The notes: generated by a model not told the origin, from the sequence alone. A stretch of DNA of 64,000 bases from Pedobacter sp. (GCA_008015505.1 SSFR01000007.1:62001-126000); one strand, 5' to 3'; shown: positions 4,054 through 58,172, counted from the stretch's first letter. Program-made: numbers and translations.

Positions 4054-4136
4054 TTTTTTTGATTTGGTATGATTTCTAAAAAGATATTGCCAGCATCGAC
4101 GAGGTCTGCGAAGGCAGCTGCTTTGCACACATCTGC

Positions 4137-4718: not shown

Positions 4719-4912
4719 ATGTTGTCCTTTTGATTTGTTTTGGGTTGCGAAATAGCCCCTGATCCGATTTCTAGCAGATAGGCGCATACCTCCGGATCAT
4801 TTTCTAGCGCTTCCTTGGTATACTGTTTGCGCATTTCTGGGATATAGACACCAAAATGGACGGTATACTTAGCCACACCTGGTGCGGCTAAGTTTTCATT
4901 TTTAGGCTTCAT
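4715..4912 (-). CDS. hypothetical small phage protein
   Basis: Co-directional small ORF (MKPKNENLAAPGVAKYTVHFGVYIPEM). Confidence 0.45.
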   Translation of the reverse strand: MKPKNENLAAPGVAKYTVHFGVYIPEMRKQYTKEALENDPEVCAYLLEIGSGAISQPKTNQKDNI

Positions 4913-4921
4913 GTAGGTTGA

Positions 4922-5863: not shown

Positions 5864-5875
5864 ATTGATCGATTT

Positions 5876-6856
5876 TTATTGTTTAATATTTTTTGAAAGA
5901 AGAGCACGTTCCCCGCGATCGAAGGAAGTTTCAAAGTTTTGTCCTCGACTGCTATGGTATGCCTTATCTGTTGAAGCATATGCGCGCAAAGGGGGGGTAG
6001 ATACTGCATCAAGGCGCTTACGCAAGGCATCCAGCTGTGCGGGTAAATCTTCTGTCTCTTCTTCATTTAAAATGGCCTCGAATGACTGTAAAAGTCCCTC
6101 AAAACCTAGAGCACAGTTTTCCAGTCGTGATAAAAGATCATTCATTATTTGATCTGAACTAGGCTCCTGTATAGTGTCTTCATTTTTTACTGGCCCCGAA
6201 AAGTGCTTGTTGGGACTTAGGCGAGCGTTTAATATTTGTCTTATTGGATTCATATGTTGATTGTTTTTTTGATGATTTAAATGGAAAGCCTCCACAAGCT
6301 TATTGTACGTCAGCTGATGGATATTTTGGGGAATGTCTTTTGCTTGATGCGTTTCGATCTGGTCGATCAGGCCCACTGAGAGGGCCTCAGCGGGTGAAAA
6401 TAAATGATCTTGAAAGTTAAGCCAGTTTTGATGGACATAATCCAAGCTTTTACCACTCTTAGCGGCAATTAAATCCGCCAGAATAGTATCGTATTTTTCT
6501 ACTTCAGCTGCTGTTTGTCGCAGTTTTTGTGCGTGGCCATATTCGTTTGTACTCACATTGTGGAGCATCAGCAAGCTGCCTTGTGACATATATACCCGAT
6601 GACCAGCCAAAGCAATCATCGCGGCCATGGAGTAGGCAATGCCATCTACGTGCGTGTATACAGGAACTTTAGATGACTTAATTGTATTGAAAATGGCCAG
6701 CCCATCCCATACTGATCCGCCAGGAGAGTTGATATGGACATGGATGGTATGCCCCGCTTGTTCAAGCTTTTGGAATTCCTGAACGAATGCTTCTGCTGTG
6801 ACACCGTCCTGGCCTATTACTCCGTAAAGGAAGATCTTGTGGTTTTCCCGATCCAT
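5876..6856 (-). CDS. ClpP-like (S14) prohead protease, possibly fused to scaffold
   Basis: HVHINSPGGSVWDGLAIFNTI, GIAYSMAAMIALAGHRVYMSQGSLLMLHNVS (catalytic Ser and His contexts); long C-terminal extension. Confidence 0.8.
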   Translation of the reverse strand: MDRENHKIFLYGVIGQDGVTAEAFVQEFQKLEQAGHTIHVHINSPGGSVWDGLAIFNTIKSSKVPVYTHVDGIAYSMAAMIALAGHRVYMSQGSLLMLHNVSTNEYGHAQKLRQTAAEVEKYDTILADLIAAKSGKSLDYVHQNWLNFQDHLFSPAEALSVGLIDQIETHQAKDIPQNIHQLTYNKLVEAFHLNHQKNNQHMNPIRQILNARLSPNKHFSGPVKNEDTIQEPSSDQIMNDLLSRLENCALGFEGLLQSFEAILNEEETEDLPAQLDALRKRLDAVSTPPLRAYASTDKAYHSSRGQNFETSFDRGERALLSKNIKQ

Positions 6857-6915
6857 CTTTCAATTTTTCCAAAAATGAAAAGAGGAAAGAGAACCAGAAA
6901 TGACACAAGTACTAA

Positions 6916-7503
6916 TTAGCCCACTGAAACACTTACGCGATTCGAGAAGTCAAAAATAGGCTGGGTCTCCTGGTCAATTAATGGATTCAATCGTGTACTT
7001 TGCTTACGTCTTTCCCTGAAGTACCACTGCTTCATGTTCAAAAAGGGTAGTTCATCTTCTGAAAATCCATAGTAATCAAGAAATGATCGGATATTATGAT
7101 CCGTTTCTTTAAAGGATGCGTTGGGATGCTCGCACCATTTAAACAGCTCCTGCCTAATAAGCTTGTCTATAGCCGTATTGAAGCGTTTAAAATTTCTAGT
7201 AGAAAATGCTACTGCACGATCACGCGCGTGAAAATTATTCCAGGAGATCACAAAGTCATAAGTAGCACCTAGAAATACAGGTGATGAATCATCTACTGCA
7301 CCATTTTTAGTGGGCACTTTAAATATGCCATTAAACAGCAATGCGGCATAATTTGGCTCTCCTGAATAAATGCGTGGGCCATATTGTGCCACTAAATAAC
7401 GACGGATGTGGGGATATACGGGAATGCGGATTATATACATACTAGAATGGTCTGTATTAAATATAACGCCGCAATATACGATATTGTTGTCTTTAAAAGA
7501 CAC
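6916..7503 (-). CDS. hypothetical phage-associated protein
   Basis: 195 aa ORF, co-directional with head genes. Confidence 0.5.
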   Translation of the reverse strand: MSFKDNNIVYCGVIFNTDHSSMYIIRIPVYPHIRRYLVAQYGPRIYSGEPNYAALLFNGIFKVPTKNGAVDDSSPVFLGATYDFVISWNNFHARDRAVAFSTRNFKRFNTAIDKLIRQELFKWCEHPNASFKETDHNIRSFLDYYGFSEDELPFLNMKQWYFRERRKQSTRLNPLIDQETQPIFDFSNRVSVSVG

Positions 7504-13348: not shown

Positions 13349-13377
13349 TTTTTAATGGGTTTTGGGGAGATGAATGG

Positions 13378-13782
13378 TTATTTTTTGCTATTGGTTGGCT
13401 TTGATAGAGATTCTATTATCTCATCTAGAAGGTCGGGATTGCTAAAGCGTATCACAGTTGTACTGGTGTTGTTCACCAGAACATGAATAGCAAATTGATC
13501 AGGGCCTTCGCATTCTACTTTAGTGATCCGTAAGGGGTGATTCTGGGGTGGGTTGCCCTGTAGAGCATGGTTGGGTAGGGGGATGTTTTTCTGGTTTCGC
13601 ATGTCAGATGAAATTTTGTAAATAATAGCCCAGGTCGCTGCGAAACCAGCTGGATTACAGAAGTTGCAGGACTTGCACCTGATCGCCTGAGCTTTATTTT
13701 GATTAATAAATTTTGAGATGGATTGCTCCATCTGGTTTCGCGCTTCAAACGTGCGACTATTTTTTGGGAAATACAAATACAT
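13378..13782 (-). CDS. hypothetical protein with Cys cluster
   Basis: 134 aa, RCKSCNFCNPAG; co-directional with primase. Confidence 0.45.
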   Translation of the reverse strand: MYLYFPKNSRTFEARNQMEQSISKFINQNKAQAIRCKSCNFCNPAGFAATWAIIYKISSDMRNQKNIPLPNHALQGNPPQNHPLRITKVECEGPDQFAIHVLVNNTSTTVIRFSNPDLLDEIIESLSKPTNSKK

Positions 13783-13792
13783 CAGTGCTTTT

Positions 13793-14053
13793 TTAGATAT
13801 GGAGCTGTTTTAAAATAGGATTAACCTCCAGGTGCTCGTATTCAAAGGCCAGAAGGTCATGAATAAAGCGTGCAGCTGTCTTTTCTTGCTCTAAAAGATA
13901 TTCAAGCATTTCGGTGACTTTGTTTGTGGTGTGGGTTAAGTTCTTTGCCTGAGCATATTTTAGCCATGAGATATTATGCTCCAGTATGGAGATTTTCTCT
14001 TGGCACCTGTCGAGTTCCTCCAACATGGAGTCTACGGCTTCTGTGTTGATCAT
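13793..14053 (-). CDS. hypothetical helical protein
   Basis: 86 aa, coiled-coil-like composition, co-directional. Confidence 0.45.
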   Translation of the reverse strand: MINTEAVDSMLEELDRCQEKISILEHNISWLKYAQAKNLTHTTNKVTEMLEYLLEQEKTAARFIHDLLAFEYEHLEVNPILKQLHI

Positions 14054-14072
14054 GGTGTTTGTATTTAGATGA

Positions 14073-14645
14073 TTATACTAAATTGAGTTGATGAGCCAGA
14101 ATCGCTAATGCAGGCTTGCCAGCGATGCCAGCTTTGTAGGCTATTTGATCCTTGTGGTAGCGCAGTGTGCCCAATGCTATGAAGAGTTCCGCGCAAATAT
14201 CTTCGTCCGTCTTAGCTTGTCCGATGAGCTTTAGAACGTCAATATCACGTTTTGATAGAATTCCATTTTTAAGTTGGATGGAAGCGCAAAGCCTTCCTTC
14301 ATAGGGACACTTCCCCCGCCGTCCACATTCGATATATTCAGAATGAATGATTAAGCCATCGGCGGTGATATCTGCATTTTGATCGAAGCCACCAAAACGA
14401 CAGAATATATACTGTCTAATTTGTGATCGATAATCGGTAATATCCCAATCAACCAATGCTTTCAACGCTTTAGGGTTTTTGAGCATATCTGCCTCAACGA
14501 TTTTTATGATGTGCGCAGGAATATTTTCAAAGGTGTAAGTCATGCCGTTGTGTATGCATTTGATTTCATTCTGATGAATGAAAAATTCAACACCGTTGTC
14601 GACTAGGCCAGCGGGTAATTTTTGATTTTGATCAATTAAGTTCAT
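14073..14645 (-). CDS. LuxR C-terminal HTH regulator with Cys-rich middle
   Basis: C-terminal LSKRDIDVLKLIGQAKTDEDICAELFIALGTLRYHKDQIAYKAGI; ECGRRGKCPYEGRLC cysteine motif. Confidence 0.65.
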   Translation of the reverse strand: MNLIDQNQKLPAGLVDNGVEFFIHQNEIKCIHNGMTYTFENIPAHIIKIVEADMLKNPKALKALVDWDITDYRSQIRQYIFCRFGGFDQNADITADGLIIHSEYIECGRRGKCPYEGRLCASIQLKNGILSKRDIDVLKLIGQAKTDEDICAELFIALGTLRYHKDQIAYKAGIAGKPALAILAHQLNLV

Positions 14646-14877
14646 GGATAAATAGGAGTTTAGATTTTAAAATTTCTTTTTCACTTTCTGGGAGTCCAGA
14701 TAAATCAATGGCTTTTGTAACTACGTGGCCATTATTCCTCAACCTGAGCATCACTTTGTTGACGGTTGAAATACTTTTCCCTGCCTCTTGTGCTACTCTT
14801 TTTTGCCAGCCTCTTGGCATATGTTGGCGAATCTTGTTCAGCTCCCTTTTTCCAAGTGTTCTTTTTCTTTGACTCAT
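14632..14877 (-). CDS. small HTH-like protein
   Basis: MSQRKRTLGKRELNKIRQHMPRGWQKRVAQEAGKSISTVNKVMLRLRNNG; start trimmed from ORF 14632..14973. Confidence 0.5.
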   Translation of the reverse strand: MSQRKRTLGKRELNKIRQHMPRGWQKRVAQEAGKSISTVNKVMLRLRNNGHVVTKAIDLSGLPESEKEILKSKLLFIHELN

Positions 14878-15038
14878 TTGTGTAACTAGATCGATGAAAA
14901 TGTGTATTATATTTGTGACTGTCTTGAGATGACAAATATGATTATAAAAAACAGTACTGTCAATAATCGACATTAAATAAAATTCAATATATAAGTAAAT
15001 AATTGATATTAAGAAACTTAAGTTTTAAAATAAAGATC

Positions 15039-15428
15039 ATGGAAATACAAATAGGTGCTAGAATAGATAACCTTAGGCACAAAAGGAATGTATCAGTAGA
15101 GGAGCTTAGCGAAACGCTCCATATAACTGAGCGAAACGTTTATAAGCTTTTTAAAAAAAATGATATCTGGGTTAGCCAGTTGTGGGATTTAAGCGAGAAA
15201 CTCGATTATAATTTTTTTGAGCTCTATAAACCTGCAACCTCTGGGGAACCAGCCAAACAGAAGCCAACCTTGGAGGGCATCAAAGATTTAAAAAAGACTA
15301 AGGTTGACGAAAAGGCATTGGAGGTAAACTTTGCTGTTCAATATCTACCAGAAGCATCGGACAAGCTAGGTCAATTTATACTTAATGTTCAAATAATGGC
15401 AGAGGAGATGGGGATCAAGGTGGTGTAA
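15039..15428 (+). CDS. XRE-family HTH regulator
   Basis: IGARIDNLRHKRNVSVEELSETLHITERNVYKLFKKNDIWVSQLWDLSEKLDYNFFEL; start trimmed to MEIQIG. Confidence 0.7.
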   Translation: MEIQIGARIDNLRHKRNVSVEELSETLHITERNVYKLFKKNDIWVSQLWDLSEKLDYNFFELYKPATSGEPAKQKPTLEGIKDLKKTKVDEKALEVNFAVQYLPEASDKLGQFILNVQIMAEEMGIKVV

Positions 15429-18592: not shown

Positions 18593-20191
18593 CTAGTTTT
18601 TAATATTCGATCCCTTCGGTGAAAATACTTTACTAAAAGTACCGAGAACACTATTACCAACGAACGCGCTTGCAGCAAGTGCACCACTAAAAATATGAGT
18701 TGTAGGCTCTCCTGTAGGCTCAATAACGGTAGCTTGTATATTATTCGTAGAATCTGCTGCAGTGAGAACAGCACGAGCCTCATCGATAACAACAATAGCG
18801 CGATTATTATCAGGAGTCTTACCAACAGCGATAATAGCATTACTTTCACTATCAATAGAGGTTTGATTAGTCATACTTCTGTCATTGTTGTTACCAAAAG
18901 CCCGGGCAGCAATTTTCATAGCTTCGGTAATAGCAGTCATGGCACCATTGCCAACATTGCTTGCAGCAGCAAGGGCACTGTTTAAGGCACTATTTGCAGT
19001 AATAATACTGCCACTACTAATACTACCTGCAGCAGCAAAAGCTGCATTTCCGGCAAAACTAGATGCGACTAGAGTACTATTCATAGCACTATTGGCAGCA
19101 ACGATAGAACCATTGCCAATACTACCTGCAGTAGCAAGAGCGCTATTTAAGGTACGAGATGCAGCAATGGTGGAACCATTGCCAATACTACCTGCAGCAG
19201 CAAGAGCGCTATTTAAGGCACGAGATGCAGCAATGGTGGAACCATTACCAATACTACCTGCAGTAGCAAGAGCGCTATTTAAGGCACGAGCTGTAGCTAC
19301 AAGAGCACCATTGCCAGTACTACTTGCAGCAGCGAGGGCGCCATTGCCGACATTACCTGCAGCAGCGAGGGCGCCATTACCAGCACTACCTGTTGCAACA
19401 AGAGTTCCATTACCAGCAGCCTCAAGATATCTCAGTGCATTATTATACATTTCCCAGAAAAGATTATCAGGAACGCCTTTATTAAAAAAATCACTGGCTT
19501 TCAGTATTTTATTTAAGAAATATATGGTAGTTACTTCAGAAAACTTGATTTTACGTATATCAGGACAAAGAATTTCGGCAGATTTAACACCCAATTTGGT
19601 ATGGTATGTCCCCAATATGGGTAATATATTGTTTTTTATATTGGATGGATCTAGAGAATCTGAAATTCGTAATCCTGCTCCTAGTTGGTTAAGGGATAAT
19701 TGAATGACCCACATTACAAACTGTGTAGGAAGTAAGTTAGTGGGCATTTTACTTAGCTTGGGCACAGCTGGAGAACCAAATGGTCGACTAGTTTTAGAAG
19801 GAGCGATCTGATATCCAGAAAGAGACAAACTACTCATTGCCACCCCAGCTATCTTGTCAGCTAGATTAGGACTTTTAGGTCGAAATATATTGAACTTACT
19901 ACCTTCTTTTAATACTGATGCGATTATCAATTGGCTGGTTACAAAATATCTTCTTTCTGAAGGGTTCCATTCTAGGTAGATTAATTTATCTTTTGAAGTA
20001 ACGATCCCTGTAAAGCCACCTTTTTTATTATTATAGTCATCATATAAGGTGAATATATCTCCAGGTTCTAAGTTTGATAATGAAACACGAAACAGCTCTT
20101 TACCATTTAGTCTACGTAAACACTCACTTAATATGCTTTTCATTTGTTTAGTAAACATATCTCGCCACATTTGGTTGCTTGCTGGGTTCAT
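18593..20191 (-). CDS. hypothetical protein with ~16 tandem 11-aa repeats
   Basis: Non-repetitive N-terminal ~260 aa, then units such as LNSALATAGSI / GNGSTIAASRA; codons read as an open 532 aa frame. Confidence 0.6.
   Translation of the reverse strand: MNPASNQMWRDMFTKQMKSILSECLRRLNGKELFRVSLSNLEPGDIFTLYDDYNNKKGGFTGIVTSKDKLIYLEWNPSERRYFVTSQLIIASVLKEGSKFNIFRPKSPNLADKIAGVAMSSLSLSGYQIAPSKTSRPFGSPAVPKLSKMPTNLLPTQFVMWVIQLSLNQLGAGLRISDSLDPSNIKNNILPILGTYHTKLGVKSAEILCPDIRKIKFSEVTTIYFLNKILKASDFFNKGVPDNLFWEMYNNALRYLEAAGNGTLVATGSAGNGALAAAGNVGNGALAAASSTGNGALVATARALNSALATAGSIGNGSTIAASRALNSALAAAGSIGNGSTIAASRTLNSALATAGSIGNGSIVAANSAMNSTLVASSFAGNAAFAAAGSISSGSIITANSALNSALAAASNVGNGAMTAITEAMKIAARAFGNNNDRSMTNQTSIDSESNAIIAVGKTPDNNRAIVVIDEARAVLTAADSTNNIQATVIEPTGEPTTHIFSGALAASAFVGNSVLGTFSKVFSPKGSNIKN
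18884..19414. repeat. 33/66 bp tandem coding repeat
   Basis: Recurring block gcaatggtggaaccattgccaatactacctgcagcagcaagagcgctatttaaggcacgagatgca with 66 bp higher-order period around 19130-19290. Confidence 0.8.
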
Positions 20192-46345: not shown

Positions 46346-46500
46346 ATTTTCGTGGATTTGATTTTAAGAATTCTTCCTGTTGCTGAACAAGCTCTAATAT
46401 ATCTTGTCTTAATAGTGGTCACAGAATCTAAATAAAGCTTACCTTCTTTCCATCTACCGATGATGACTATATTGATAGCTCTCGTGTGTCATTAAATTAA

Positions 46501-46541
46501 AACCAAAGCCCATTTAAATTTTGCTTAAACAGGCTTTGGTT
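46501..46541. terminator. terminator between convergent transcription units
   Basis: aaccaaagcc ... ggctttggtt stem with T-run. Confidence 0.6.
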
Positions 46542-46565
46542 TGGCATTTTTTTAATTCGATTTTA

Positions 46566-48479
46566 CTACATCGCCTGAATGTGTAAATGGTCTAATGCAT
46601 CAGCAAAGAGGAAGAGAATATTTGCTCCTCGAGTTGCAGCATTATCGATAGCGGTTTTCAGTGTATTGCGTGAGTTTGTATTGGCAATAAAGTTGAGATC
46701 AGTAGCTGTTCTTCCAGATGGAGAGTGTTCATTGTATTGATTGGGAAGAAATAAATTTCCAGTAGTGGGAAGGTCCTGATACTGTGGCAACAGTGTCGGA
46801 GGTGTGGTATTGGCATACACCGTAATGTGGTTATTGTATGTCCTGAAATCGTGTTCAGCCCCTGATCCGTCCGCATAAGGTGGGCGTGGTAGTCCAAGGG
46901 CATAATTTCCTGGTGCTAAGTTATTGATGGCAGCCACGACCGCATTCAAACACTGTGCTTGATTACGAACATCAATGCGAATGCCATCGATATGAGTTAA
47001 ATCTACCGCTGTACCATTGGAGTGATGCGAAGAACGCGGTCTAATATAGCTCAGGATTCCAAAAGCCGGATTAGCGCTTTGATTATGATTTAGCGAAAAA
47101 TAAAGCATTTGATTGATGCTTTGAAGTAGGGATAGCGAAGGAACAAAGGTGTTGTCACCCAGTTGATAGTTACCATTGGTCCGGATGTATTCTAATTGCT
47201 GCCTGATATTGCTTGGAATATTTACCCGACCGGGATTGGAAAGAATGTCATTTACCACTTCTTGGATGGTTACGCTCTGTGCGGAAGATATACTTTGTCC
47301 AGTAGATGGCGGAGTATCGTATTGGATGAGGTTATTATGATCGATAATAGATATGAGTGAATCGGCATAACCTGGATCAGTGGCATATCCGGCTCGGGCA
47401 ATTTCTCTAGCAAATTGACGTCCGTCATTAGTATGGTTGAAAGCTTCTCGGTATCTGCTGTTATTTACTAAAAAATTGCCATGATCATTGAAACTGTCGG
47501 TGGCACTAGCATATGCTCTAAAATAGTCTTTTACTCGCCAGCGGTATTTAGTTGCACCACTGCTATCAGTAAAGGCTTCGATAGAAATAATCTCGGGGTA
47601 TGGATGACGACTCTGATCGTTATCGTTATGAATTTCGGTGGTGGTTAATAGTTGTCTTTGTCCTGTCCAGCTTGAACCGGCTTTAATACCAAAAAAGTTG
47701 AGACTAGGAGCATGCCTACCCCAACCTGATTCTAAGGCTGCTTGTGCCAGTGTCACTGAGGCTGGAACACGAGTGGTACGCATACTATCGATTGCATTTT
47801 GCGAATACTGACTAATAAAATCAGTCTGAACTGAAAATTCTCCTGATAAACTATTCCAACTAGCAGCGATGGATTGTGCACTTGAAGTTCCTGTAAATAA
47901 GGCAATTTCTCGGTTTCTTCTGTTTATTAAACCTTGTGAGTCAACAGGCCGCCCATTGATCCTGACTTTTACCCATTTTCTCATTTCGGTGGGTACGGCA
48001 TCGTAATTGCCTTGATTAAGTAAACGACGTAGGGTGGAACGATTCCAAGCACCCGTACCAATGTTGTATACGAAGCTGGCTAGAGCGTCAAATTGATTTT
48101 GACTAAGGGTGACGGTGACGGTGTCGTTGAGCACTTGTTGGGTACTATTTATTCGGGTCATCAATAGTTCGGTAGCTCTCTCTTCGGTGATGCCATTAGT
48201 GTAGGGTTGTTCAGAGGCATCTCCATTGCAATTGCCATGATGAATGAGTGTACCATAACCAATGGTACAATGTCCAGCTTGATCATTATATTTTTGTGGC
48301 ATGAAACGTTCAAACTGTTTGATGAGGTTGACCCCACTGGTGGAAACTTGCCAGTTATTAGTCAAAGCTCGTGATACGTCAGTAGATGCAGCCACCGACA
48401 GTGTTTTGGTAATTTGACGCTTTTTATCAGGTGAATCTAATAATAAGGTATTCATCTGGATGAATCTGTTGTCTGACAT
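46566..48479 (-). CDS. three-domain peptidoglycan hydrolase: GH24 lysozyme + GH73/FlgJ-like glucosaminidase + M15-like metallopeptidase domain
   Basis: GH24: LIKQFERFMPQKYNDQAGHCTIGYGTLIH, QFDALASFVYNIGTGAW; GH73: VPASVTLAQAALESGWGRHAPSLNFFGIK; M15-like: SSHHSNGTAVDLTHID and terminal DHLHIQAM. No signal peptide. Confidence 0.8.
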   Translation of the reverse strand: MSDNRFIQMNTLLLDSPDKKRQITKTLSVAASTDVSRALTNNWQVSTSGVNLIKQFERFMPQKYNDQAGHCTIGYGTLIHHGNCNGDASEQPYTNGITEERATELLMTRINSTQQVLNDTVTVTLSQNQFDALASFVYNIGTGAWNRSTLRRLLNQGNYDAVPTEMRKWVKVRINGRPVDSQGLINRRNREIALFTGTSSAQSIAASWNSLSGEFSVQTDFISQYSQNAIDSMRTTRVPASVTLAQAALESGWGRHAPSLNFFGIKAGSSWTGQRQLLTTTEIHNDNDQSRHPYPEIISIEAFTDSSGATKYRWRVKDYFRAYASATDSFNDHGNFLVNNSRYREAFNHTNDGRQFAREIARAGYATDPGYADSLISIIDHNNLIQYDTPPSTGQSISSAQSVTIQEVVNDILSNPGRVNIPSNIRQQLEYIRTNGNYQLGDNTFVPSLSLLQSINQMLYFSLNHNQSANPAFGILSYIRPRSSHHSNGTAVDLTHIDGIRIDVRNQAQCLNAVVAAINNLAPGNYALGLPRPPYADGSGAEHDFRTYNNHITVYANTTPPTLLPQYQDLPTTGNLFLPNQYNEHSPSGRTATDLNFIANTNSRNTLKTAIDNAATRGANILFLFADALDHLHIQAM

Positions 48480-48580
48480 AGGTTTTAGTATTTAATGATT
48501 TCGCCGTTAATGAGGTGTTGCGTATTTCAACATTTTTAGTGCCTCTAAAGTTTATCTGAATTTAAGATTTAGGACAGTTC

Positions 48581-50239
48581 TTATAGAACTTTTCCCAATT
48601 CAAAATGCATCCCATCTTTATGTCCATTAAAGTGTCCTCCCCAGAAAAAACCATTGTTGCCAGCAATGGTTACTAATTCGCGTACAGATCCATTTTGTCC
48701 GACCAGGGCAGGCTCACCACCAAATGTGTTCCAGGGAGCATTGATGTCGAAAGCAGTTCCCCAGGCATGGTTACTTAGTGGCCTTGGTGAGCGACTTTGT
48801 GTGCCTCTTATAAATCTGGGGGCATATCCACCCTCAAAAGTTTGTATTCGATCGAGTAAGCCGGCAGCTTCCCAAGCAGCCCAAAGTCTAATTAATGCAT
48901 CGGCTCCCAATCGGTGAAACGCGATCGTGCCATTTTGTATAGTTTGGTTGCCAAATCGTTTGCCGTTTAATTGGGGGATGCTCACATTGGTGATATTTGT
49001 GTTGCGCCAATCCCCTAGGACTCGGATGCCATCGCCGTTAAAAGTCGATGGATCAGGCTCGTAGTCAAAGTGTCCATAAATTTGTAGTCTTTCGCTTGTG
49101 TTATAGGGCCTGATGGTAGTGGGGCGTTCTGGATAATTGGTACTATGAATATCAACAGTTAATGAGTTAGATGTTGTTGATAGATTGGGTGGGGCTGTAT
49201 TTACTTGATTTGTGTTTGATTTTTTTTGAATATCTTCGAGATCGTGTAAAAATTCAGTAGGATCAAAATCCATCTCACTACTTAATTTTTTGTTTGATTT
49301 GGGCTGTTTGCTTACCGTTTTTTTTACCTGGTTTATTTTTTTCTCAGTTTGATTGATAGCGTCCAGATCATCAAAGCGCTTCTCGAGTTCACTGGTGTTT
49401 AGAGGGATGGTTCCCAGGTTATAGGCATTGGCATACTGCATATTTTCCTTGATGCGATCGAAGATAGCATGCGGATTTTCTGATGGATCAGCTTGTTTTG
49501 TTTTGGGTGCATTTGGTTCGATTGATTGTTGTTTACCCAATTCACTTCTGTCCACTGTTTTTCCTGATGCTGAGTCGTACACTTTTTGACCTGAAAGAAT
49601 GGCTTGTAGGTCATTGATTAACTCTTGTTCTTTGGCCGATTGTGTTTCGCTGGTATTAGGGTTAGCTAGAGGTTGATGATCGGGAGCAGATGTTCGCGTT
49701 TGATTAATGTTTGATTCAAGGGGAAATGTTGGCGGTGCGTCGTATGTATTTAAAGATTGAGCTTGGGCGCTTAGTGTATTACTGGAGGCGAAGGGCTCTA
49801 ATATGCTGGTTTGATATTCTTGATCTGTGCCTGTCGGATTAGAATTGATGGGTTGATTGGATAATGTGGGATCACTCGAGTAATAGGACAGAGAATTGAT
49901 AACATCGTGGTTATTCTCTATCGTATTGAACGATTTTGTAATATAGTTGGAAGAGCTATCTGCAGGAGAAAAGGAATAGCCCACCACATATTCTTCTTCT
50001 TCTGATTCATTAGGGGTAGACTGTTCTACCACATATTCTTCTTCTGACTCACCTGGCAGTGCTGATGCCTGCACAATATATTCTTCCTCAATGGATTGCC
50101 CATAGGCACGTAGTGGTTGTGGAATCACTCCCCCGTCATCAAAATTAGTTGCTGTGGTTATTTTTATTTTTTTATTAAATCCATAATAGTCACTGAGCAA
50201 ATCGTCATAGTTGTCAAATAATTTCCGCTTCCTTTTCAT
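48581..50239 (-). CDS. M15-family peptidase with long low-complexity N-terminal region
   Basis: C-terminal LSNHAWGTAFDINAPWNTFGGEP...GGHFNGHKDGMHFELGKVL; N-terminal (E)EEY(I/V)V repeats. Confidence 0.75.
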   Translation of the reverse strand: MKRKRKLFDNYDDLLSDYYGFNKKIKITTATNFDDGGVIPQPLRAYGQSIEEEYIVQASALPGESEEEYVVEQSTPNESEEEEYVVGYSFSPADSSSNYITKSFNTIENNHDVINSLSYYSSDPTLSNQPINSNPTGTDQEYQTSILEPFASSNTLSAQAQSLNTYDAPPTFPLESNINQTRTSAPDHQPLANPNTSETQSAKEQELINDLQAILSGQKVYDSASGKTVDRSELGKQQSIEPNAPKTKQADPSENPHAIFDRIKENMQYANAYNLGTIPLNTSELEKRFDDLDAINQTEKKINQVKKTVSKQPKSNKKLSSEMDFDPTEFLHDLEDIQKKSNTNQVNTAPPNLSTTSNSLTVDIHSTNYPERPTTIRPYNTSERLQIYGHFDYEPDPSTFNGDGIRVLGDWRNTNITNVSIPQLNGKRFGNQTIQNGTIAFHRLGADALIRLWAAWEAAGLLDRIQTFEGGYAPRFIRGTQSRSPRPLSNHAWGTAFDINAPWNTFGGEPALVGQNGSVRELVTIAGNNGFFWGGHFNGHKDGMHFELGKVL

Positions 50240-50250
50240 GGTGGTAGGGG

Positions 50251-51003
50251 TTAAATGCGAATGTTCATTTTTACGATAGCGTAGGGGTCTAGGGTTAAGA
50301 TCAATTCATTTTCTTGCCCTGAGATATGACTTTTATTTAAAGCTATCTTGAGTTCATCAGAGCTGGAGTGAACTACTTCAGCAAGTTTATTGTTTAATAC
50401 AGCCACAGGTGGATAGTTTTGATTAAGGGAAAAATTTTGTCCTTTGAGATGTAGATAAGGCAGATTGTTGTCATCTAAGGATAAACTCACTGACCGTACC
50501 ATAGGTGGATTTTGGTTTCGTCTAGATTTTTGTATTTGATTGGCTAAGGTTTTGAAATCGATGGTATCATCGGATACACGTGCGATGTCTACTTTTTTAC
50601 TTTCGAGCTGATTGAGATCATCGACTGATGTGACCCCTATTTTGCGAAGTTTGTTTTTAGTTTTTTGGTCGATGTTGATTTGGTCAATGGATGTATCTCC
50701 CTTTACATTGGTCATTTTAGTAGTTGCTCGAACCTGTTGATCGGTGATGGAACCAAGTTGTATATTCACTTTTGATGCGCCTTGTTGTCCGGGTTGGGCA
50801 GTAATAAATTTGATGTTATCTCCATCAAATGTGGGGAAGATATTGAGATCGATAGCTAAATCTTTGACTGTATAAGTTAGTTGTTTGTTGATTGCCTTGA
50901 TTGCTAGGGTTTCGCGTGTTTTGTCAAGCTCAACTACGAGTGAGTCGACAAAATCTTCCAGATTCCAATAGGTATTATTGCTATTATTGGTTTCGGTTGC
51001 CAT
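50251..51003 (-). CDS. hypothetical protein: Trypco2-like N-terminal, HhH-like middle, IPT/TIG-like C-terminal
   Basis: LEDFVDSLVVELDKTRE...GASKVNIQLGSI; KLRKIGVTSVDDLNQLESKKV; PYLHLKGQNFSLNQNYPPVAVLNNKLAEVV. Confidence 0.5.
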   Translation of the reverse strand: MATETNNSNNTYWNLEDFVDSLVVELDKTRETLAIKAINKQLTYTVKDLAIDLNIFPTFDGDNIKFITAQPGQQGASKVNIQLGSITDQQVRATTKMTNVKGDTSIDQINIDQKTKNKLRKIGVTSVDDLNQLESKKVDIARVSDDTIDFKTLANQIQKSRRNQNPPMVRSVSLSLDDNNLPYLHLKGQNFSLNQNYPPVAVLNNKLAEVVHSSSDELKIALNKSHISGQENELILTLDPYAIVKMNIRI

Positions 51004-51259
51004 CTTCCAGATGTGTTTTAGCTTTTAGCGTGATGTTATGGTATGATGGACGAAAAGAGGTATCAACTCGGTATAAAGGGGGGATTGCCCCGATGGTTAC
51101 CTTCCCATTTTCATCCACAACGATGTCGAGTTCAACCGGTGTCCCTATCTCAATTTCGTCGATGTAGAAATGAATGCCATTGTCCTCATCGTTGATATTA
51201 CCTTTGATATCAAGCACTTTTTCAATGATTTGTCCGAAACTGATGAATGCGCTATCCAT
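50984..51259 (-). CDS. hypothetical small protein, possibly related to the Trypco2-like fold
   Basis: Overlaps neighbours by 20 bp and 8 bp; IDEIEIGTPVELDIVVDENGKVTIGAIPPLYRVDTSFRPSYHNITLKAK. Confidence 0.5.
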   Translation of the reverse strand: MDSAFISFGQIIEKVLDIKGNINDEDNGIHFYIDEIEIGTPVELDIVVDENGKVTIGAIPPLYRVDTSFRPSYHNITLKAKTHLEDGNRNQ

Positions 51260-51434
51260 TAGATTGTGGTTTGATGTTAACCGGTGTTAGCGCTACTTTA
51301 GTATTGATTTCAATATCAAAACCATCAAAATGGTATTCCACTTCGAGATTTTCACTTGATTTTGAATCCAAGCTGTCTGTGTCCTTATCGTCGGTCATAT
51401 AACGAACTAGTGGGTCATAAGTAGTGTTTATCAT
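51252..51434 (-). CDS. hypothetical small protein
   Basis: 60 aa ORF overlapping next CDS by 8 bp. Confidence 0.45.
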   Translation of the reverse strand: MINTTYDPLVRYMTDDKDTDSLDSKSSENLEVEYHFDGFDIEINTKVALTPVNIKPQSNG

Positions 51435-51450
51435 GGTAGTGGTGTGTTAG

Positions 51451-53517
51451 TTAATTATTGTTTGATTTTAATCCTAAAATCCGGGCACTTATGGGCAATG
51501 GAAATTTAATTTTAACAGGTGTGATATGGCTGGCATATCCATTTTCATTGAGTGACTCAATTTTACCTAAAGTCAATTCGGTTAGTTTAAAAATGGGTAT
51601 TACCCAAATGGTTCCCTGCTCGTAGGATTTGCCTTTAAGTTTGATATTGTGTATCAATTCAGAGGCGTTCGTTCGTGTGAAATCTAGGTTTTTAAGGGCA
51701 TTTAGTTTTTCTTCGTCCAATAATTTTTCGCCATCCCATCCATCCATGAGTTTATTTATTTCGGATAAACTTAATTCGATTCCAGCTTTCATCTTTCCAG
51801 CTGTGGTATCAATTAGACTTTCTTTGTCTTTAGGTTCGATGGATAACTTGGTGTCGGTTAATCCATTGGATGTATGATCGGGGGCGATGGAGAAGGTATA
51901 TTTTAGATCCACTTCTAGTTCCCAGCTAAACTTTTTCTTTCCTGTGACGGGTGATTGCCATATTTTGTTCCAAAAGCTTCGATATAGTTTCATATCGCTA
52001 AGCTCTTTTTCTTGTGAAACGGTTGTTCCTTGATCTTGGAAAAAGTATTGTCCTACAAATAGGGCATGACATGAGCCAACAGCTTTGAATTCTTTTTGCC
52101 CTTTCGTTAACCAGCGCATCTCGACAAAAATGTCTAGGGCATTTTGTAGCGGAATACTGGCGAGCTCATTTTTCGAAAACTCGAAGTCGGAAATGGTATT
52201 GGCAATGACATCTTTTCTTTTAAAGGTTTTGATGAGATAAATTTTTTGAGTAGTTGTATCCTTAAAGGAAAAGGTATAGATGGCTTTTGGTAATGGGCTT
52301 TTAGGGGTAGTGGGGGTGTTGATTTTTATTTTGAAAATAATTCGATCGCTTTTTTGTAGGATGAGTGTGTCTTGGCCTATATACTTTTGCGGTTCTAAAT
52401 TTTCGAATGTGAGTAATACATTATTGCTAAGTGTGAATGCTTCGGTATTTAATAAGCTATGTGCAGTAGCTACAGCTGGAGTAGGTGCCGGAGCTGGTGC
52501 AGCTGCGGGTTGATTTTGTAGTTGAGCCAATAATTGAGCTAAAACTGCCGGATCAATTGTTTGCGCAGGATTTTGTCCCGTGGATGCTTGATTTTGTAGT
52601 AGTTGTTGCATCATTAATCGGCGCTGTACTTCACTGGCTAGGCCTGACATGAGCTGATTATTGGCTTGTTGAACTTGTAGCCGATGCTGTTGCGTAGCGT
52701 TGACTAGCTGAGGAAGTAGTTGTAGTCCTTGCTGTATAATTGGGCCTGCTAGTGTTGCAAGCAGGGCATCGTCAATACCGAAAACCATGGCGTTAGACAA
52801 AGGGCCATTATTTTGACCATTCATAAATCGGTTCGAGATATGATGGTCCTGGTGAAATATAGATTGTTGGGTGCTTACGCCTGTTAGGGATGGTAATAAA
52901 GCCCTTAACAAGCTGGAAAGTATACCTGCAATATTGGTTGATTGTTGTGTTGTTTGTACGGTATTGCTGCCGGTATTCGGGTTTGAAGCATTTCCATTGG
53001 GCTGGGTCAATAGATTGATAGCCGCAGGCAGGACAGCTCGGGCTACATTGCCAATGAGCTCCTCAAAGGAGTATTGCGTAGCCAATTCCTGTTGATTTTT
53101 ACTGATGCTTCTACTTGGATTGAACGTTAACTGACTCATTGGTATGCTTGCGATTGTTGATATCCCAAAATTTGTTGTGTTTATTTCCTTTAATGCAAAA
53201 GGGATTTTAACGACATCAGATACAGCTAGAGATTTGCCCTTTTCGTCTTTTGCACTAATTAATTGGATATAACAGCTAGTTCTATTAAAATAATTTTTAG
53301 GTAATCGTATTTCTTCTGAGGTATCACCCATGAAGAAGGTTTTCTTTTTTGCTTTAAAAGGGGTGGAGCGCGTAATATTTGCAACCCATTGGATACCACC
53401 CCTTACATCGGTATTTTGTCCAATAGTAAATTTATAAAAGGTGTTTGTGCCAATGTCTATTTTAAATCGGTAATGGTTTTTATCGGCTGCGCCCCAATGT
53501 AAAATAGCTAATGCCAT
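51451..53517 (-). CDS. large hypothetical protein with two beta-rich segments and a Q/A/P-rich linker
   Basis: 688 aa; YRFKIDIGTNTFYKFTIGQNTDVRGGIQWVANITRS; QLLQNQASTGQNPAQTIDPAVLAQLLAQLQNQPAAAPAPAPTP. Confidence 0.6.
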   Translation of the reverse strand: MALAILHWGAADKNHYRFKIDIGTNTFYKFTIGQNTDVRGGIQWVANITRSTPFKAKKKTFFMGDTSEEIRLPKNYFNRTSCYIQLISAKDEKGKSLAVSDVVKIPFALKEINTTNFGISTIASIPMSQLTFNPSRSISKNQQELATQYSFEELIGNVARAVLPAAINLLTQPNGNASNPNTGSNTVQTTQQSTNIAGILSSLLRALLPSLTGVSTQQSIFHQDHHISNRFMNGQNNGPLSNAMVFGIDDALLATLAGPIIQQGLQLLPQLVNATQQHRLQVQQANNQLMSGLASEVQRRLMMQQLLQNQASTGQNPAQTIDPAVLAQLLAQLQNQPAAAPAPAPTPAVATAHSLLNTEAFTLSNNVLLTFENLEPQKYIGQDTLILQKSDRIIFKIKINTPTTPKSPLPKAIYTFSFKDTTTQKIYLIKTFKRKDVIANTISDFEFSKNELASIPLQNALDIFVEMRWLTKGQKEFKAVGSCHALFVGQYFFQDQGTTVSQEKELSDMKLYRSFWNKIWQSPVTGKKKFSWELEVDLKYTFSIAPDHTSNGLTDTKLSIEPKDKESLIDTTAGKMKAGIELSLSEINKLMDGWDGEKLLDEEKLNALKNLDFTRTNASELIHNIKLKGKSYEQGTIWVIPIFKLTELTLGKIESLNENGYASHITPVKIKFPLPISARILGLKSNNN

Positions 53518-53528
53518 AATTTCGAGCT

Positions 53529-54575
53529 TTATCTGCTAGGTCCAGCTGCTGCAGGAATACCCGGTACGCCAGCTGCTGGTGTTGCAGGTTTTAGGGCTGC
53601 TATACCACCGTCTGCATACATGTTGGCAAAGTTGTCCAGTTTGAAGTAGTCTGTTTTGAACTTGATATTAACATGTCCTTTTAAGGTGGCTGATAAATCG
53701 TCTGTTGCTTTTTTGTCTGATGTGTTTACTTGGATATTGGTATTAGTTATATCAATAGAACCACTTGGCCCTCCAAAGATGCTTCCCAATATGCCGCCGT
53801 CCATCTCCATATGCGAGGAAACCGTATTGATGTTTTGGTCATCATGGTGCGCTGTACTGGCACGTGTTGCTTTGATTGAAAACTCCACCGCAGCATCGAT
53901 CTCTCCTTTTTCAACGACTAATCGGGTAACACCCATTAGGAGTACTTCGCGTAGTGCTGCTCGATGTTCTTTGGCCATCATTAGCTTGGCTTCAAACAAG
54001 TCTTTCTTTACCTCGGCATCTTCCATGTCGTGCTTATCCCCATCTGGATTAGTGAGGACTAGTTTACTACTGCCGTCGGCATTTTTTTCGGTGCTGATAT
54101 TGTATTTATCTCCTTTTGACTCAGCCATATGACCAAAGGCATCTTCGTCTTTTACTTTTTTGATAAAATCGCCAGCATCTTTGGTCGCCTCTTTCATCAG
54201 CTTGATATAGCTATCGGTTTGGGTTTTCATCACCTTGAGGTTGGCATCAAAGACCGCTTTAAGTAGGTCGGCAACAAATTTGGGGAAGTCAACTGAGTCA
54301 ACTAATTCCTTAAAGGATTGTGTATCGCCTTTGAATGCAGGATCATAACCTTTGTAGCCCATATCCTTGCCACTGTCTGTGGCCATACTTTCGGCAATCC
54401 CATGATTACGCATTTCCTTTGAGGCATAATCATCAACTAGAGATTGATAAATACTTTTTTGTGAATCAAAGGGCATTTGTTTAAAAACATCACTCATGGC
54501 TAGCACTTCACGTGCTTTAGCCCGTGCATTATTTTTGATTTGCTCGACAGAAGGCAAGATGTTTATTTGATTCAT
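53529..54575 (-). CDS. hypothetical protein, helical with beta-rich C-terminal portion
   Basis: 348 aa; FPKFVADLLKAVFDANLKVMKTQTDSYIKLMKEATKD; NTNIQVNTSDKKATDDLSATLKGHVNIKFKTDYFKLDNFANM. Confidence 0.6.
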   Translation of the reverse strand: MNQINILPSVEQIKNNARAKAREVLAMSDVFKQMPFDSQKSIYQSLVDDYASKEMRNHGIAESMATDSGKDMGYKGYDPAFKGDTQSFKELVDSVDFPKFVADLLKAVFDANLKVMKTQTDSYIKLMKEATKDAGDFIKKVKDEDAFGHMAESKGDKYNISTEKNADGSSKLVLTNPDGDKHDMEDAEVKKDLFEAKLMMAKEHRAALREVLLMGVTRLVVEKGEIDAAVEFSIKATRASTAHHDDQNINTVSSHMEMDGGILGSIFGGPSGSIDITNTNIQVNTSDKKATDDLSATLKGHVNIKFKTDYFKLDNFANMYADGGIAALKPATPAAGVPGIPAAAGPSR

Positions 54576-54696
54576 ATTTATTCGTGTTAGTGGTAAATAC
54601 TTTTTACTGCTATAAGCCTTAAGACACTTATCGTAAATTAAGGACAGATTGAATTATATACCGTTCCTCCCTTTAGAGGGGGGCGTGGGTTAGACT

Positions 54697-56643
54697 TTAA
54701 AAAGCCCATTCATCTTTGCTACTGTTATCTGTTCTGGCATCGGTTTTATTATTGGAATCCGTATCGCTGTCTTTATCTCGATCTCTGGTCTTGTCTTTAT
54801 TTTCGGGTTGTTTATCATCATTGTCATCATCAAATGATTGCAGTTGTGCCTGAGTGATAATATAGGCATCCACATTGCTAATAAAGTCTGAGAAATTTTT
54901 ATCGTCTTCAAACGAAGCTGGATTATATTTGGCTATCGAGTCGAATATTTCAAATCCTAGTTTAGCTTTATTATAAAGGATGGTTGTTTTGGGTCTCTGT
55001 TGTTTCATGCCTTCATAGAGCAGCTCTACTACCTTCCACCAGGTGCCTCCAGCGGGGACTAATTGTTGCACGATTTCTGGGTGGTTTAATACCCTTTTGA
55101 TAATAAAATTCAATTCTTCGTAAATAATGGGGGTAATCACATTAGCCATTCCTGAGCAATGGGTAGAAAGATTGTATTGCAAGTCTTCTACCGCTTGCAT
55201 GATGGGTTGTCTAGACACATAGCTTTCAGGATTTGGGCTTTCTTGGGCACGTTGAATGTATTTAGCTCCTTCCATGATGAGGATCTTGAAGAGTTTATTA
55301 AACTCTTTATTGACGATCACATCTTCGGTAATTTGGCCAGATCCATAATTAAATACCTGCTTATAAAACATGTATCGTTCTGTTGGTCGTGTACGATCAA
55401 CAATTTTTCCGTTGAGGATATTGGTGAACTTGTTCGAGAATACATATAACTGAAGGTCTTCGCGCAGCGTTTTGTCCGAAATTTGAATCGTTCCTCGGAT
55501 CATGAATTTATGCGTGAAGTAATTCATTACGTCAAAAATATTTAGCTCGTCGCCCAGTGTCATTGAATAAAACATTTGTGCAGCGCAACGGATATTATTA
55601 ATGGCAATGGTTACTGTTGAGGCTTGTTCATCTAAAAAGTCGACATCAAAATCAGAAGCAGGTTGGCTATCACTAGTGGACCCATTGCCATTACTCGACA
55701 CTTCCATCAGCGATGGATTGTTCTTAATGTCATTAAGAAAAATGGGTGCTAAACTGTCGTAGTTTGCTTTGGTTACTGGAATGATCGAGTGTTTGATTTC
55801 ATAAATCAGCGGCTGAATCAGTTCAGCAGGAATGGTGGTTCGATTATATAATGCCGAGCCATCTATTAAGGACAGCTCTTTGCTATTGGTAATATAGTCT
55901 TCGAGCTTGCTATGAACTAATGGGCCGAATGTAAGGGATGACAATGCAGGATTGGTATTTAAAATAGCCTTGATGATCAGGTCATCCGATGAGTTATAAT
56001 GAACATCTACTTTTTCGGCATTGATGTATTGGCGGGCTGCACTGATTTGTGTGTATTTGAGAATGTTTCGTAGCCCATTTGCATTCCCAAAAATAAAATT
56101 AATCAGTCCATTGATTTCTGTATTGCCTGCAATCACATAGCTGTAAGCCAATAGATAGTCAACAATGGCAGGATAGGTTAATAGGGTCTTGGTATTGTTA
56201 TCAAAGTTAGTCCATAGATTTTCATTGATCTGGGTATTAAAGCTGTATTTTAACAACGATAATGGAGCAGTGGCATCAATATATTCTTCGATGGTTTGTA
56301 GATTAGCGCTGTTGTTTGAGGAAGAAATATTGTAAATATTTTCCAATAAACTGTCTGATCCTTCCCATTGATTGCTGTCTTGATGCTTGGTTCCAAAGCA
56401 GCGGGGACTTAATTGTTTAATTAATAGGTCTGCTGGGAGCATGCCATCTATGCCGGTTTTTGTTTTGACATTGTCAGGGCTCTGTTGTTTGGCTAGAAAG
56501 ACGGGCTTTGCTAAGAGTGTGTTTAATGCGACAAGTTGACTTTTGACATTGGAATCTACTGCTGCATCGACACCATTGGTAGTTACGTTTGCCCTGCGAA
56601 TCTTAACTCCGCCTGTTGAAGGAAGAACAATGTTTGTTGCCAT
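54697..56643 (-). CDS. large hypothetical protein with acidic/basic low-complexity C-terminal tail
   Basis: 648 aa; C-terminal DDDNDDKQPENKDKTRDRDKDSDTDSNNKTDARTDNSSKDEWAF. Confidence 0.6.
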   Translation of the reverse strand: MATNIVLPSTGGVKIRRANVTTNGVDAAVDSNVKSQLVALNTLLAKPVFLAKQQSPDNVKTKTGIDGMLPADLLIKQLSPRCFGTKHQDSNQWEGSDSLLENIYNISSSNNSANLQTIEEYIDATAPLSLLKYSFNTQINENLWTNFDNNTKTLLTYPAIVDYLLAYSYVIAGNTEINGLINFIFGNANGLRNILKYTQISAARQYINAEKVDVHYNSSDDLIIKAILNTNPALSSLTFGPLVHSKLEDYITNSKELSLIDGSALYNRTTIPAELIQPLIYEIKHSIIPVTKANYDSLAPIFLNDIKNNPSLMEVSSNGNGSTSDSQPASDFDVDFLDEQASTVTIAINNIRCAAQMFYSMTLGDELNIFDVMNYFTHKFMIRGTIQISDKTLREDLQLYVFSNKFTNILNGKIVDRTRPTERYMFYKQVFNYGSGQITEDVIVNKEFNKLFKILIMEGAKYIQRAQESPNPESYVSRQPIMQAVEDLQYNLSTHCSGMANVITPIIYEELNFIIKRVLNHPEIVQQLVPAGGTWWKVVELLYEGMKQQRPKTTILYNKAKLGFEIFDSIAKYNPASFEDDKNFSDFISNVDAYIITQAQLQSFDDDNDDKQPENKDKTRDRDKDSDTDSNNKTDARTDNSSKDEWAF

Positions 56644-56656
56644 TGGATTTCGGTTT

Positions 56657-57961
56657 TTAAGATAACATGTTGTTTAATAATTTGAATGAATCAGCCAGAT
56701 TGAGTAAGCCAAAACCTGATCTGATATCCCGTACTTTATCGGTGAGTCGGTCGGATGTATTTCTCAGGATGTAATTGATTTGCCGATTTGATAGTTTGAT
56801 GCCTTTTTCGTTAGCTAATGATTTCATTAGTCCAATGGAGCCACTTACAAATGGCGAAGCCTGTGATGTCCCAGATAGATAAGCGTATTTGCTGTCTGGA
56901 AACGAGCTATAGATATGATAGCCAGGTGCAACTAGTGTAATGGGGGCCCCATAGGAAGTGAAACTAGTTACTTGTCCAGTTAAATCAACAGCGCCAACAG
57001 CAATGACTCCATTTAAAGCAGCTGGATAATACATTTCTTGGGTACCGTCATTTCCACTGGCAGCTACAATGGTCACATTTTTATTGATGGCATAGTTAAC
57101 GACATCTTCGTGTGGCAAACCGCCGCCAGTGTGTTTGATGCCTAGACTCATATTAATGACGTCGGCACCATGATCTACGGCCCATTTAATTCCGTTGTTG
57201 ATGTTATCCACGATGCCTGCCCCAACGATGTGATTGCCAGTTCTCATGGGTGCGAGTACTCTGCATGAGAGTATACTGCACCCTGGGGCAATGCCTTCGC
57301 TCATATTTAAGCCTTTTGCGGCAATAATACCTGTTACATGTGTACCATGTCCTACTTTATCTTCATCTGAATCATCGTGTAGGCCAGTTACTTCGCCTAT
57401 AAAGGAAGTGGTATCTAAACCTTGTAGGTTGACAAAATCTTTATGTTGGATGACCTGATCTTTAAATTCAGGGTGTTTGATATCAATGCCTGTGTCTAGT
57501 ACGGCTACCTTGATTTGCTTGGTGCCTTTGGTCCAAGCTTTGGCATAGGGCAGATAAATCATTTTAGCAACAGCGTCTTCATCTGCGTAAGTAAATGTAG
57601 TAGATGTACTGGGGATAGGAGTAGTTCCTATTGTGATTGGATGAACATAGGTTACAAAAGGTAACGTACGGATTTGGTGGATGAGTCTATCGGGCAGTGT
57701 TCCGTCTTCTTGTAAAATGATTCGGAATGTTAGGTGAAAGCCGGATAATATTTCTTCATAATTCCAGCCGTTGGCATGTGCTTTATATTGTCTAGTTACC
57801 CAAAATTTAAAACCGGATTGGATTAGTAATCTATCTAAAGTGGGTTCAAATTTTTCAATCACCACACTTTTGTCTGTAATAAAATTTTCCCAATAGGGAA
57901 TATTGGCTGGCAGCGTGGCCAGCGAGTTGGGCTTTATTTTAATAATAAAGTGTTCTTTCAC
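56657..57961 (-). CDS. S8 subtilisin-like serine protease without obvious signal peptide
   Basis: Catalytic triad contexts VAVLDTGIDIKHPEF, GHGTHVTGIIAAKG, LSGTSQASPFVSGS. Confidence 0.9.
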   Translation of the reverse strand: MKEHFIIKIKPNSLATLPANIPYWENFITDKSVVIEKFEPTLDRLLIQSGFKFWVTRQYKAHANGWNYEEILSGFHLTFRIILQEDGTLPDRLIHQIRTLPFVTYVHPITIGTTPIPSTSTTFTYADEDAVAKMIYLPYAKAWTKGTKQIKVAVLDTGIDIKHPEFKDQVIQHKDFVNLQGLDTTSFIGEVTGLHDDSDEDKVGHGTHVTGIIAAKGLNMSEGIAPGCSILSCRVLAPMRTGNHIVGAGIVDNINNGIKWAVDHGADVINMSLGIKHTGGGLPHEDVVNYAINKNVTIVAASGNDGTQEMYYPAALNGVIAVGAVDLTGQVTSFTSYGAPITLVAPGYHIYSSFPDSKYAYLSGTSQASPFVSGSIGLMKSLANEKGIKLSNRQINYILRNTSDRLTDKVRDIRSGFGLLNLADSFKLLNNMLS

Positions 57962-58172
57962 CCGATTTGAATTATGGTTTCAACATTCAGAATGATGCAG
58001 ATGACAGAAAGGTTATCAAATATAATAGTTGTTTTCATTGATTTATAAAAAATAAATTAAATTCTTAGTTAAAAAATATTTTAGTTATATATGCTGAGAA
58101 ATTACAATAGGGATGGGTTCATTATTCTCAATTTCTCCTCATTCTATTTTATCTTTGTTCCAGCTAAAAAAT

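Follow-up and report, generated by a model that had tools for sequence, protein, structure and literature searches.

Extracellular contractile injection systems (eCIS; PVC, Afp, MAC) and type VI secretion systems (T6SS) are multi-gene assemblies made in the cytoplasm, with enzymes devoid of Sec signals (for eCIS, review PMC12961389). Polymorphic toxins, including those of the lipocone superfamily, join a constant N-terminal part to interchangeable enzymes (PMC12419801). The same work describes "broken-hairpin" toxins, single proteins that combine wall- or lipid-acting enzymes with a shared short domain, in their case a C-terminal hairpin, and have neither signal peptide nor immunity gene. In the Trypco/vWA-MoxR conflict systems a protease stands beside a Trypco2-like domain, and wall-enzyme effectors are predicted in an allied system (PMC7159879). 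The nine-gene cluster described here, at positions 46566-57961 of a 64,000-nucleotide stretch of Pedobacter sp. DNA (the window, to which all coordinates refer unless a locus is named), shares traits with each of them. The reading that we prefer, with a probability of about 0.45, is that of a chassis assembled in the cytoplasm, matured or triggered by a subtilase, and carrying docked and exchangeable enzymes that would attack the envelopes of other cells.

Layout, conservation and spread of the cluster

The nine co-directional open reading frames (ORFs) listed by the earlier note were all re-located on the minus strand, where every cluster feature given below lies. Their products were named by position: in gene order, P9 (the S8 protease, first gene), P8 (648 aa), P7 (348 aa), P6 (688 aa), P5 (60 aa), P4 (91 aa), P3 (250 aa), P2 (552 aa) and P1 (637 aa). 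The overlaps of 20 bp (50984-51003) and 8 bp (51252-51259) had been placed correctly; the remaining intergenic gaps are of 11-16 bp, except for 121 bp (54576-54696) and 101 bp (48480-48580). Promoter-like sites are as frequent in shuffled sequence as in the real one.

P7, searched in 85,488 species genomes, retrieved 23 other loci. Unless a contig end cuts them, they retain eight or nine of the genes, collinear and co-directional, and they belong to five phyla: Bacteroidota, Acidobacteriota, Chloroflexota, Planctomycetota and Pseudomonadota. Among Bacteroidota the hosts are Chitinophaga (many isolates), Mucilaginibacter, Flavihumibacter, a Chitinophagales bin and Lewinella; the others are Acidobacteria, Chloroflexota, Caballeronia, one beta- and one gamma-proteobacterial bin and Candidatus Brocadia. 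The candidate system of the earlier note is thus strongly conserved in synteny across phyla. P5 (51252-51434; motif FDG[FY]...K[VI]xL[TN]P) seems dispensable from the BLAST list, yet a small ORF is found at its place in 18/18 loci inspected, most of them with an FDG[FY]-type motif. Because of the synteny in 23 other loci and of this P5 counterpart, the cluster is beyond chance.

Two further relatives are carried by plasmids. A reduced one in the cyanobacterium Tolypothrix consists of S8, P8, P7, P6, P4, P3 and a peptidoglycan-binding protein. A remote one, on megaplasmid pBPJTT of Burkholderia pyrrocinia (L026:2391-24055), holds four paralogues of P7, proteins resembling P8 and P3, an S8 protease, a 1254-aa amidase/C92/C70 protein and a sigma-54 regulator, with cyclase and patatin genes downstream.

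The cluster is rare across the bacteria sampled. Of 398 Bacteroidota 5 carry P7, in three cases a remote one; so do 2 of 149 other genomes of the family Chitinophagaceae. Besides the seed, no P7 was detected among 299 Pseudomonadota, 301 Chloroflexota and 297 Acidobacteriota. The flanks are unremarkable and change between loci, with few defence matches among 70 flanking proteins. The sole neighbour recurring over distant lineages is a sigma-54 activator, at some non-Bacteroidota loci; we found no other conserved flanking family and no adjacent immunity gene. The conserved unit ends at the nine genes. A conserved antisense ORF ("c7") from the neighbourhood analysis was discarded as a shadow of the P3 and P4 genes.

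In the window the cluster lies between a tetratricopeptide repeat (TPR) gene ending at 46345 and nuoA, starting at 58113. The distance from the TPR gene to nuoB is 12.3 kb, versus ~0.5-0.7 kb in 8/8 relatives, one of them congeneric. The cluster is therefore an insertion of ~12 kb (46346-58112), missing at that site in the relatives. P7 shares 65-70% of its residues with its counterparts from Acidobacteria, Chloroflexota, Caballeronia and Brocadia, the elongation factor G (EF-G) of the same genomes being 54-58% identical; within Bacteroidota (locus L019) the values are 65% for P7 versus 78% for EF-G. A tree of P9, P7 and P3 rejects the Bacteroidota rows, Lewinella set aside, as one clade (approximately unbiased test, p = 5e-8), and also rejects joining the two Pseudomonadota. 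Tree and identities are both discordant with the organisms, which indicates that the cluster moves horizontally, among at least five phyla.

Constant regions and exchangeable enzymes of P1 and P2

The modular organization of the two payload-like proteins is the strongest clue to function. P2 (48581-50239), a putative payload carrier, ends with an M15_4 D-Ala-D-Ala carboxypeptidase (aa 484-548, 48596-48790; Pfam E 1.3e-14). Its family has a constant N-terminal half, with YYG, FDNGE and EEYVV repeats and a domain of the form D-[LM]-[KQ]-[AS]-I-L-x-G ... FDxIAxxMxYAxAYxLGxxxL. From conservation and a motif census, this proposed docking domain would cover aa 203-295 of P2 (49355-49633; DLQAILSGQKVYD ... 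IFDRIKENMQYANAYNLGTI). The C-terminal enzyme is exchangeable: M15_4 in the window and in L019, a C-terminus that can be aligned in most Chitinophaga, and DUF4056 (E 6e-37) in the Acidobacteria locus L015. The lipocone superfamily, other families of which are predicted lipid-acting toxins, includes DUF4056 (PMC12419801). In the Chloroflexota, Caballeronia and Brocadia loci the C-terminal place is taken by an unnamed domain with the motif NAFGDHFLTDAFxxGH. This domain, of ~400 aa (L017:15540-16745, L018:10650-11864 and L022:15362-16579), has no Pfam or NCBIfam match where scanned, and may be a novel enzyme, lipocone-like or metal-dependent.

The docking-like domain of P2 is present in exactly one copy in each of 17/17 genomes, which rules out further payload genes with this domain elsewhere in these hosts. 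The AILSG motif is confined to payload proteins over 517 kb scanned in six frames.

P1 (46566-48479), a putative payload, starts with MSDNRF (48462-48479), i.e. the M-x-NR-[FLIM] tag found in its relatives, where differing modules follow. The earlier note had called it a triple-domain hydrolase. Pfam bears this out for the GH24 lysozyme (aa 54-191, 47907-48320; E 1.6e-35) and the GH73 glucosaminidase (aa 227-384, 47328-47801; E 4e-31); the third region (aa 480-637, 46569-47042) is M15-like through its motif SHHSNGTAVDL...HLHIQ only and has no Pfam match. P1 of Chitinophaga carries one or two C70 papain-like domains in addition to GH24, GH73 and the M15-like region. In L017, L018, L019 and L021 a domain with conserved LTHG ... 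MNC accompanies GH24; L019 and L021 have M15_3 as well. By inspection this LTHG/MNC domain has a caspase-like His/Cys pattern; its profile search against PDB was empty.

The tag also recurs in genome G495 (L037:1316-6191), where each of three products encoded downstream of P3 (1055, 175 and 183 aa) begins with M-[KR]-NR-[LMI]. The 1055-aa protein has in addition the DLKAILSGEKLYD motif and DUF4347 domains. The two shorter ones, with weak transthyretin/Ig-like matches and no enzymes, are perhaps adhesion or spacer payloads. In a six-frame scan of the fetched loci the tag was found in proteins at the payload position only, plus one chance hit. The P1 tag and the D-[LM]-[KQ]-A-I-L-S-G domain of P2 may thus act as docking signals.

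The enzymes had been described as lacking an obvious Sec signal, and indeed a hydropathy scan detected no signal-like hydrophobic N-terminus in any of the nine proteins. The same scan, with the N-termini, revealed no holin-like transmembrane release protein among the nine, and neither Pfam nor NCBIfam gave a delivery or secretion domain. Peptidoglycan cutters of several specificities could also serve self-lysis or envelope remodelling, during development or for the release of matrix or DNA; the many Chitinophaga hosts and the sigma-54 regulators ahead of the cluster in some lineages are in keeping with this. We nevertheless consider such a role decidedly unlikely, since the very sporadic occurrence in Chitinophagaceae and the horizontal spread go against a core developmental function, which would also leave the lipid and protease payload swaps unexplained.

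The subtilase and the candidate chassis proteins

P9 (56657-57961, 434 aa) has a prodomain-like N-terminal region and an S8 catalytic domain at aa 148-418 (56708-57520; Pfam PF00082, E 2e-53). Its D/H/S catalytic motifs are intact in 21/21 loci listed. In PADLOC only subtilase-type matches rise above noise. The best-scoring NCBIfam profile is the mycosin-type S8 of type VII secretion systems (T7SS MycP), at 178 bits, under the family cut-off of 279 bits. P9 differs from mycosins by the absence of signal peptide and membrane anchor, and no T7SS gene was recognised in the cluster.

For P3 to P8 no confident family was obtained in Pfam, PHROGs, NCBIfam or PADLOC, so that the enzymes alone are recognised. 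Neither NTPase or trypsin domains nor bacterial microcompartment (BMC) or encapsulin shell proteins were matched by Pfam in the nine proteins. Profile searches of P3, P4, P6, P7 and P8 against PDB gave no confident match; one of P8 to YraP (E 0.0016) was isolated and unconvincing, and was set aside.

P7 (53529-54575), the putative core chassis protein, is the most conserved part of the cluster, with 61-88% identity across most loci of the five phyla. Its low-confidence AlphaFold model has N-terminal helices, then four long strands of beta structure that surround a Gly-rich loop. This Gly/hydrophobic loop between predicted strands (GGILGSIFGGPSG) lies at 53754-53810, and a similar one (FLQTIFGGPSK) occurs in a remote P7 relative. 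The four Burkholderia paralogues, and pairs found elsewhere, fit a repeated subunit and thus suggest that P7 is one in an assembly. These tandem pairs of short, remote P7-like proteins (~254-284 aa), in other Bacteroidota (L034:8367-10591, L035:5265-6906, L029), have no S8 or other cluster genes nearby, and may represent a minimal form related to the chassis.

P6 (51451-53517) is modelled with a beta domain at aa 1-107, a low-confidence, helical and hydrophobic middle at 140-363, and beta domains at 364-688; those at both ends are better modelled than the middle. Its mean 19-residue hydropathy, 1.63, is the highest among the window proteins. P8 (54697-56643), a putative chassis protein, and P4 (50984-51259), of no known family either, are defined by their syntenic homologues. 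P3 (50251-51003) is 46-74% identical between phyla. A helix-hairpin-helix (HhH)-like middle and an IPT/TIG-like C-terminus, in line with labels of the earlier note, receive weak support (TIG, E 7.8e-4, in one relative). A beta-module shared by P3, P4 and P7 is not supported, the hhalign comparison of these shallow alignments being null.

P1 and P2 could alternatively be secreted singly by an unknown route, without any assembly, P3 to P8 being dedicated chaperones or exporters. The docking-like regions would equally well be secretion signals, and the tag is N-terminal. We regard this as quite unlikely because the conservation and duplication of P7 look structural, and the transmembrane segments expected of an exporter are not clear in P3 to P8 by hydropathy scan.

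A degenerate phage tail, eCIS or T6SS with a lysis cassette would account for the lysozyme, M15 and subtilase domains, which also occur in phages (PHROGs matches for P1, P2 and P9). But P3 to P8 have no confident PHROG (the lowest E, 0.0054, is to a family without known function, the others being weaker), and the conserved unit stops at nine genes. P7 has no significant homologue in phages or viral contigs, and P3 and P8 have none in phages. The contractile sheath PF04984 was not found in the whole genome (G000), with positive control genomes; the tail tube PF06841 (gp19/Hcp-like) matched neither G000 nor any control genome. The three large proteins without assignment in the earlier note, P6, P7 and P8, were placed in no known phage-tail, eCIS or T6SS family. 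On the PHROGs, phage/viral and sheath searches we reject a contractile or phage origin; even in degenerate form it is highly improbable.

Proposed mechanism and comparison with known systems

In the mechanism that we propose, P3 to P8 would form a chassis made in the cytoplasm, with P7 probably as the repeated subunit, and cleavage by the S8 protease would mature or fire it. The payloads P1 and P2 would dock through the M-x-NR-[FLIM] tag and the D-[LM]-[KQ]-A-I-L-S-G domain. Their enzyme ends would cut peptidoglycan, here with GH24, GH73 and M15-like modules and with M15_4; papain-like, DUF4056 (predicted lipid-acting) or DUF4347-type domains occupy the same slots in other lineages. The assembly would most likely exit the cell, by lysis or through a membrane lesion, or be deployed on contact, and hit the envelopes of other cells.

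In favour of this are the synteny, the horizontal spread, the modular payloads with constant regions, the intact S8 motifs, and the absence of signal peptides and of any sheath found. The earlier note had suggested an assembled complex with wall hydrolases as payload, or a protease-activated machinery. Docking-like regions joined to interchangeable enzymes agree with the former and a constant subtilase with the latter; assembly, secretion or export, docking, proteolytic triggering and target are what we infer. Several points weigh on the other side. The P7 model is poor (pLDDT 55), and Foldseek searches with the P6 and P7 models returned scattered Ig-like or coiled matches of low TM-score, with no convincing relative. 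With so short a tag, docking is proposed from conservation. Several loci are contigs of metagenome-assembled genomes, and among isolates the secure hosts come down to Chitinophaga, Caballeronia and the cyanobacterial and Burkholderia relatives on plasmids. Finally, the cluster has no recognisable pore, tube, release or immunity gene, leaving room for a role entirely inside the cell.

Such a role is the main rival, although we hold it to be unlikely. In this abortive infection a trigger would lead the S8 protease to free wall- and lipid-cutting enzymes inside the producer, which would lyse. It would explain why there are no signal peptides, no immunity gene and no conserved neighbour beyond a regulator, and why a subtilase stands alongside DUF4347-type and lysozyme modules. 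The Burkholderia relative of P3 has a weak, sub-threshold Trypco2 match (E 0.0098), in this one remote relative; Trypco2 was named from conflict systems, and in one system of the same paper the domains associated with effectors include lysozyme and papain-like wall-enzyme modules (PMC7159879). In P3 itself Trypco2 does not appear in the list of families obtained from 14 scanned members. A suicide device is at odds, however, with the absence from the cluster of any NTPase, STAND, MoxR or sensor component (Pfam) and of any PADLOC family other than the subtilase type, in neighbourhoods that are not defence-rich. Its enzymes would require a route into the periplasm, and so bulky and so highly conserved a chassis, docking-like regions included, exceeds the needs of a suicide switch.

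The preferred reading, a cytoplasm-assembled chassis with docked enzymes, has a bolder form that is possible, if doubtful. The cluster would then encode a new class of enzyme-delivery particle, unrelated to phage tails or known secretion systems, with a subtilase-triggered chassis and tagged payloads, which would make its own entry hole (hydrophobic middle of P6, hairpins of P7), attack neighbour or prey bacteria, and have spread horizontally over at least five phyla. If a payload-carrying assembly is confirmed, bacteria would share a machine owing nothing to phage tails, with cargo defined by short tags, and this would give a new way to study interbacterial killing or programmed lysis. An intracellular suicide device, should that be the true role, would remain a conflict system of nine genes, six of whose proteins belong to no known family. 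In both cases the cluster is a defined, testable unit, which cultured Chitinophaga such as C. filiformis DSM 527 carry and which has a reduced version on plasmids of laboratory cyanobacterial strains such as Tolypothrix PCC 7601.

Elsewhere in the window, a 532-aa ORF (18593-20191) has long imperfect Ala/Gly-rich repeats (GNGALAAAG...) and a composition different from its neighbours. ORFs at 10538-15428 resemble replication/primase and regulatory genes of mobile elements (a 936-aa protein and small neighbours). The segment at 726-7503 resembles, by eye, part of a prophage, with minus-strand ORFs that are terminase-like, ClpP-like and capsid-like; the cluster is unrelated to it.

The likeness to eCIS and T6SS stops at the enzymes and the multi-gene organization: no tube, baseplate, spike or AAA+ family was matched in the cluster, the chassis is unrelated by profile, and no sheath was found in the genome. 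With polymorphic toxins the P1 and P2 families share the constant part joined to interchangeable enzymes, and CapCone-clade and VanY-related domains are common to both sets (PMC12419801); unlike them, the cluster has no immunity gene, signal peptide or known secretion domain, and a six-protein chassis and a subtilase travel together with the payloads. In contrast to the "broken-hairpin" toxins, its shared parts are N-terminal or internal and its nine genes are constant. It differs from Trypco/vWA-MoxR systems in having no NTPase, vWA or MoxR gene, in its protease, a subtilase, and in a Trypco2 match that remains sub-threshold. No description of the cluster was found in the open-licence PMC literature (preprints and subscription papers not included). 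Since it is payload-like, undescribed there, and fails the tested defining features of eCIS and polymorphic toxins, we regard it as a new gene system.

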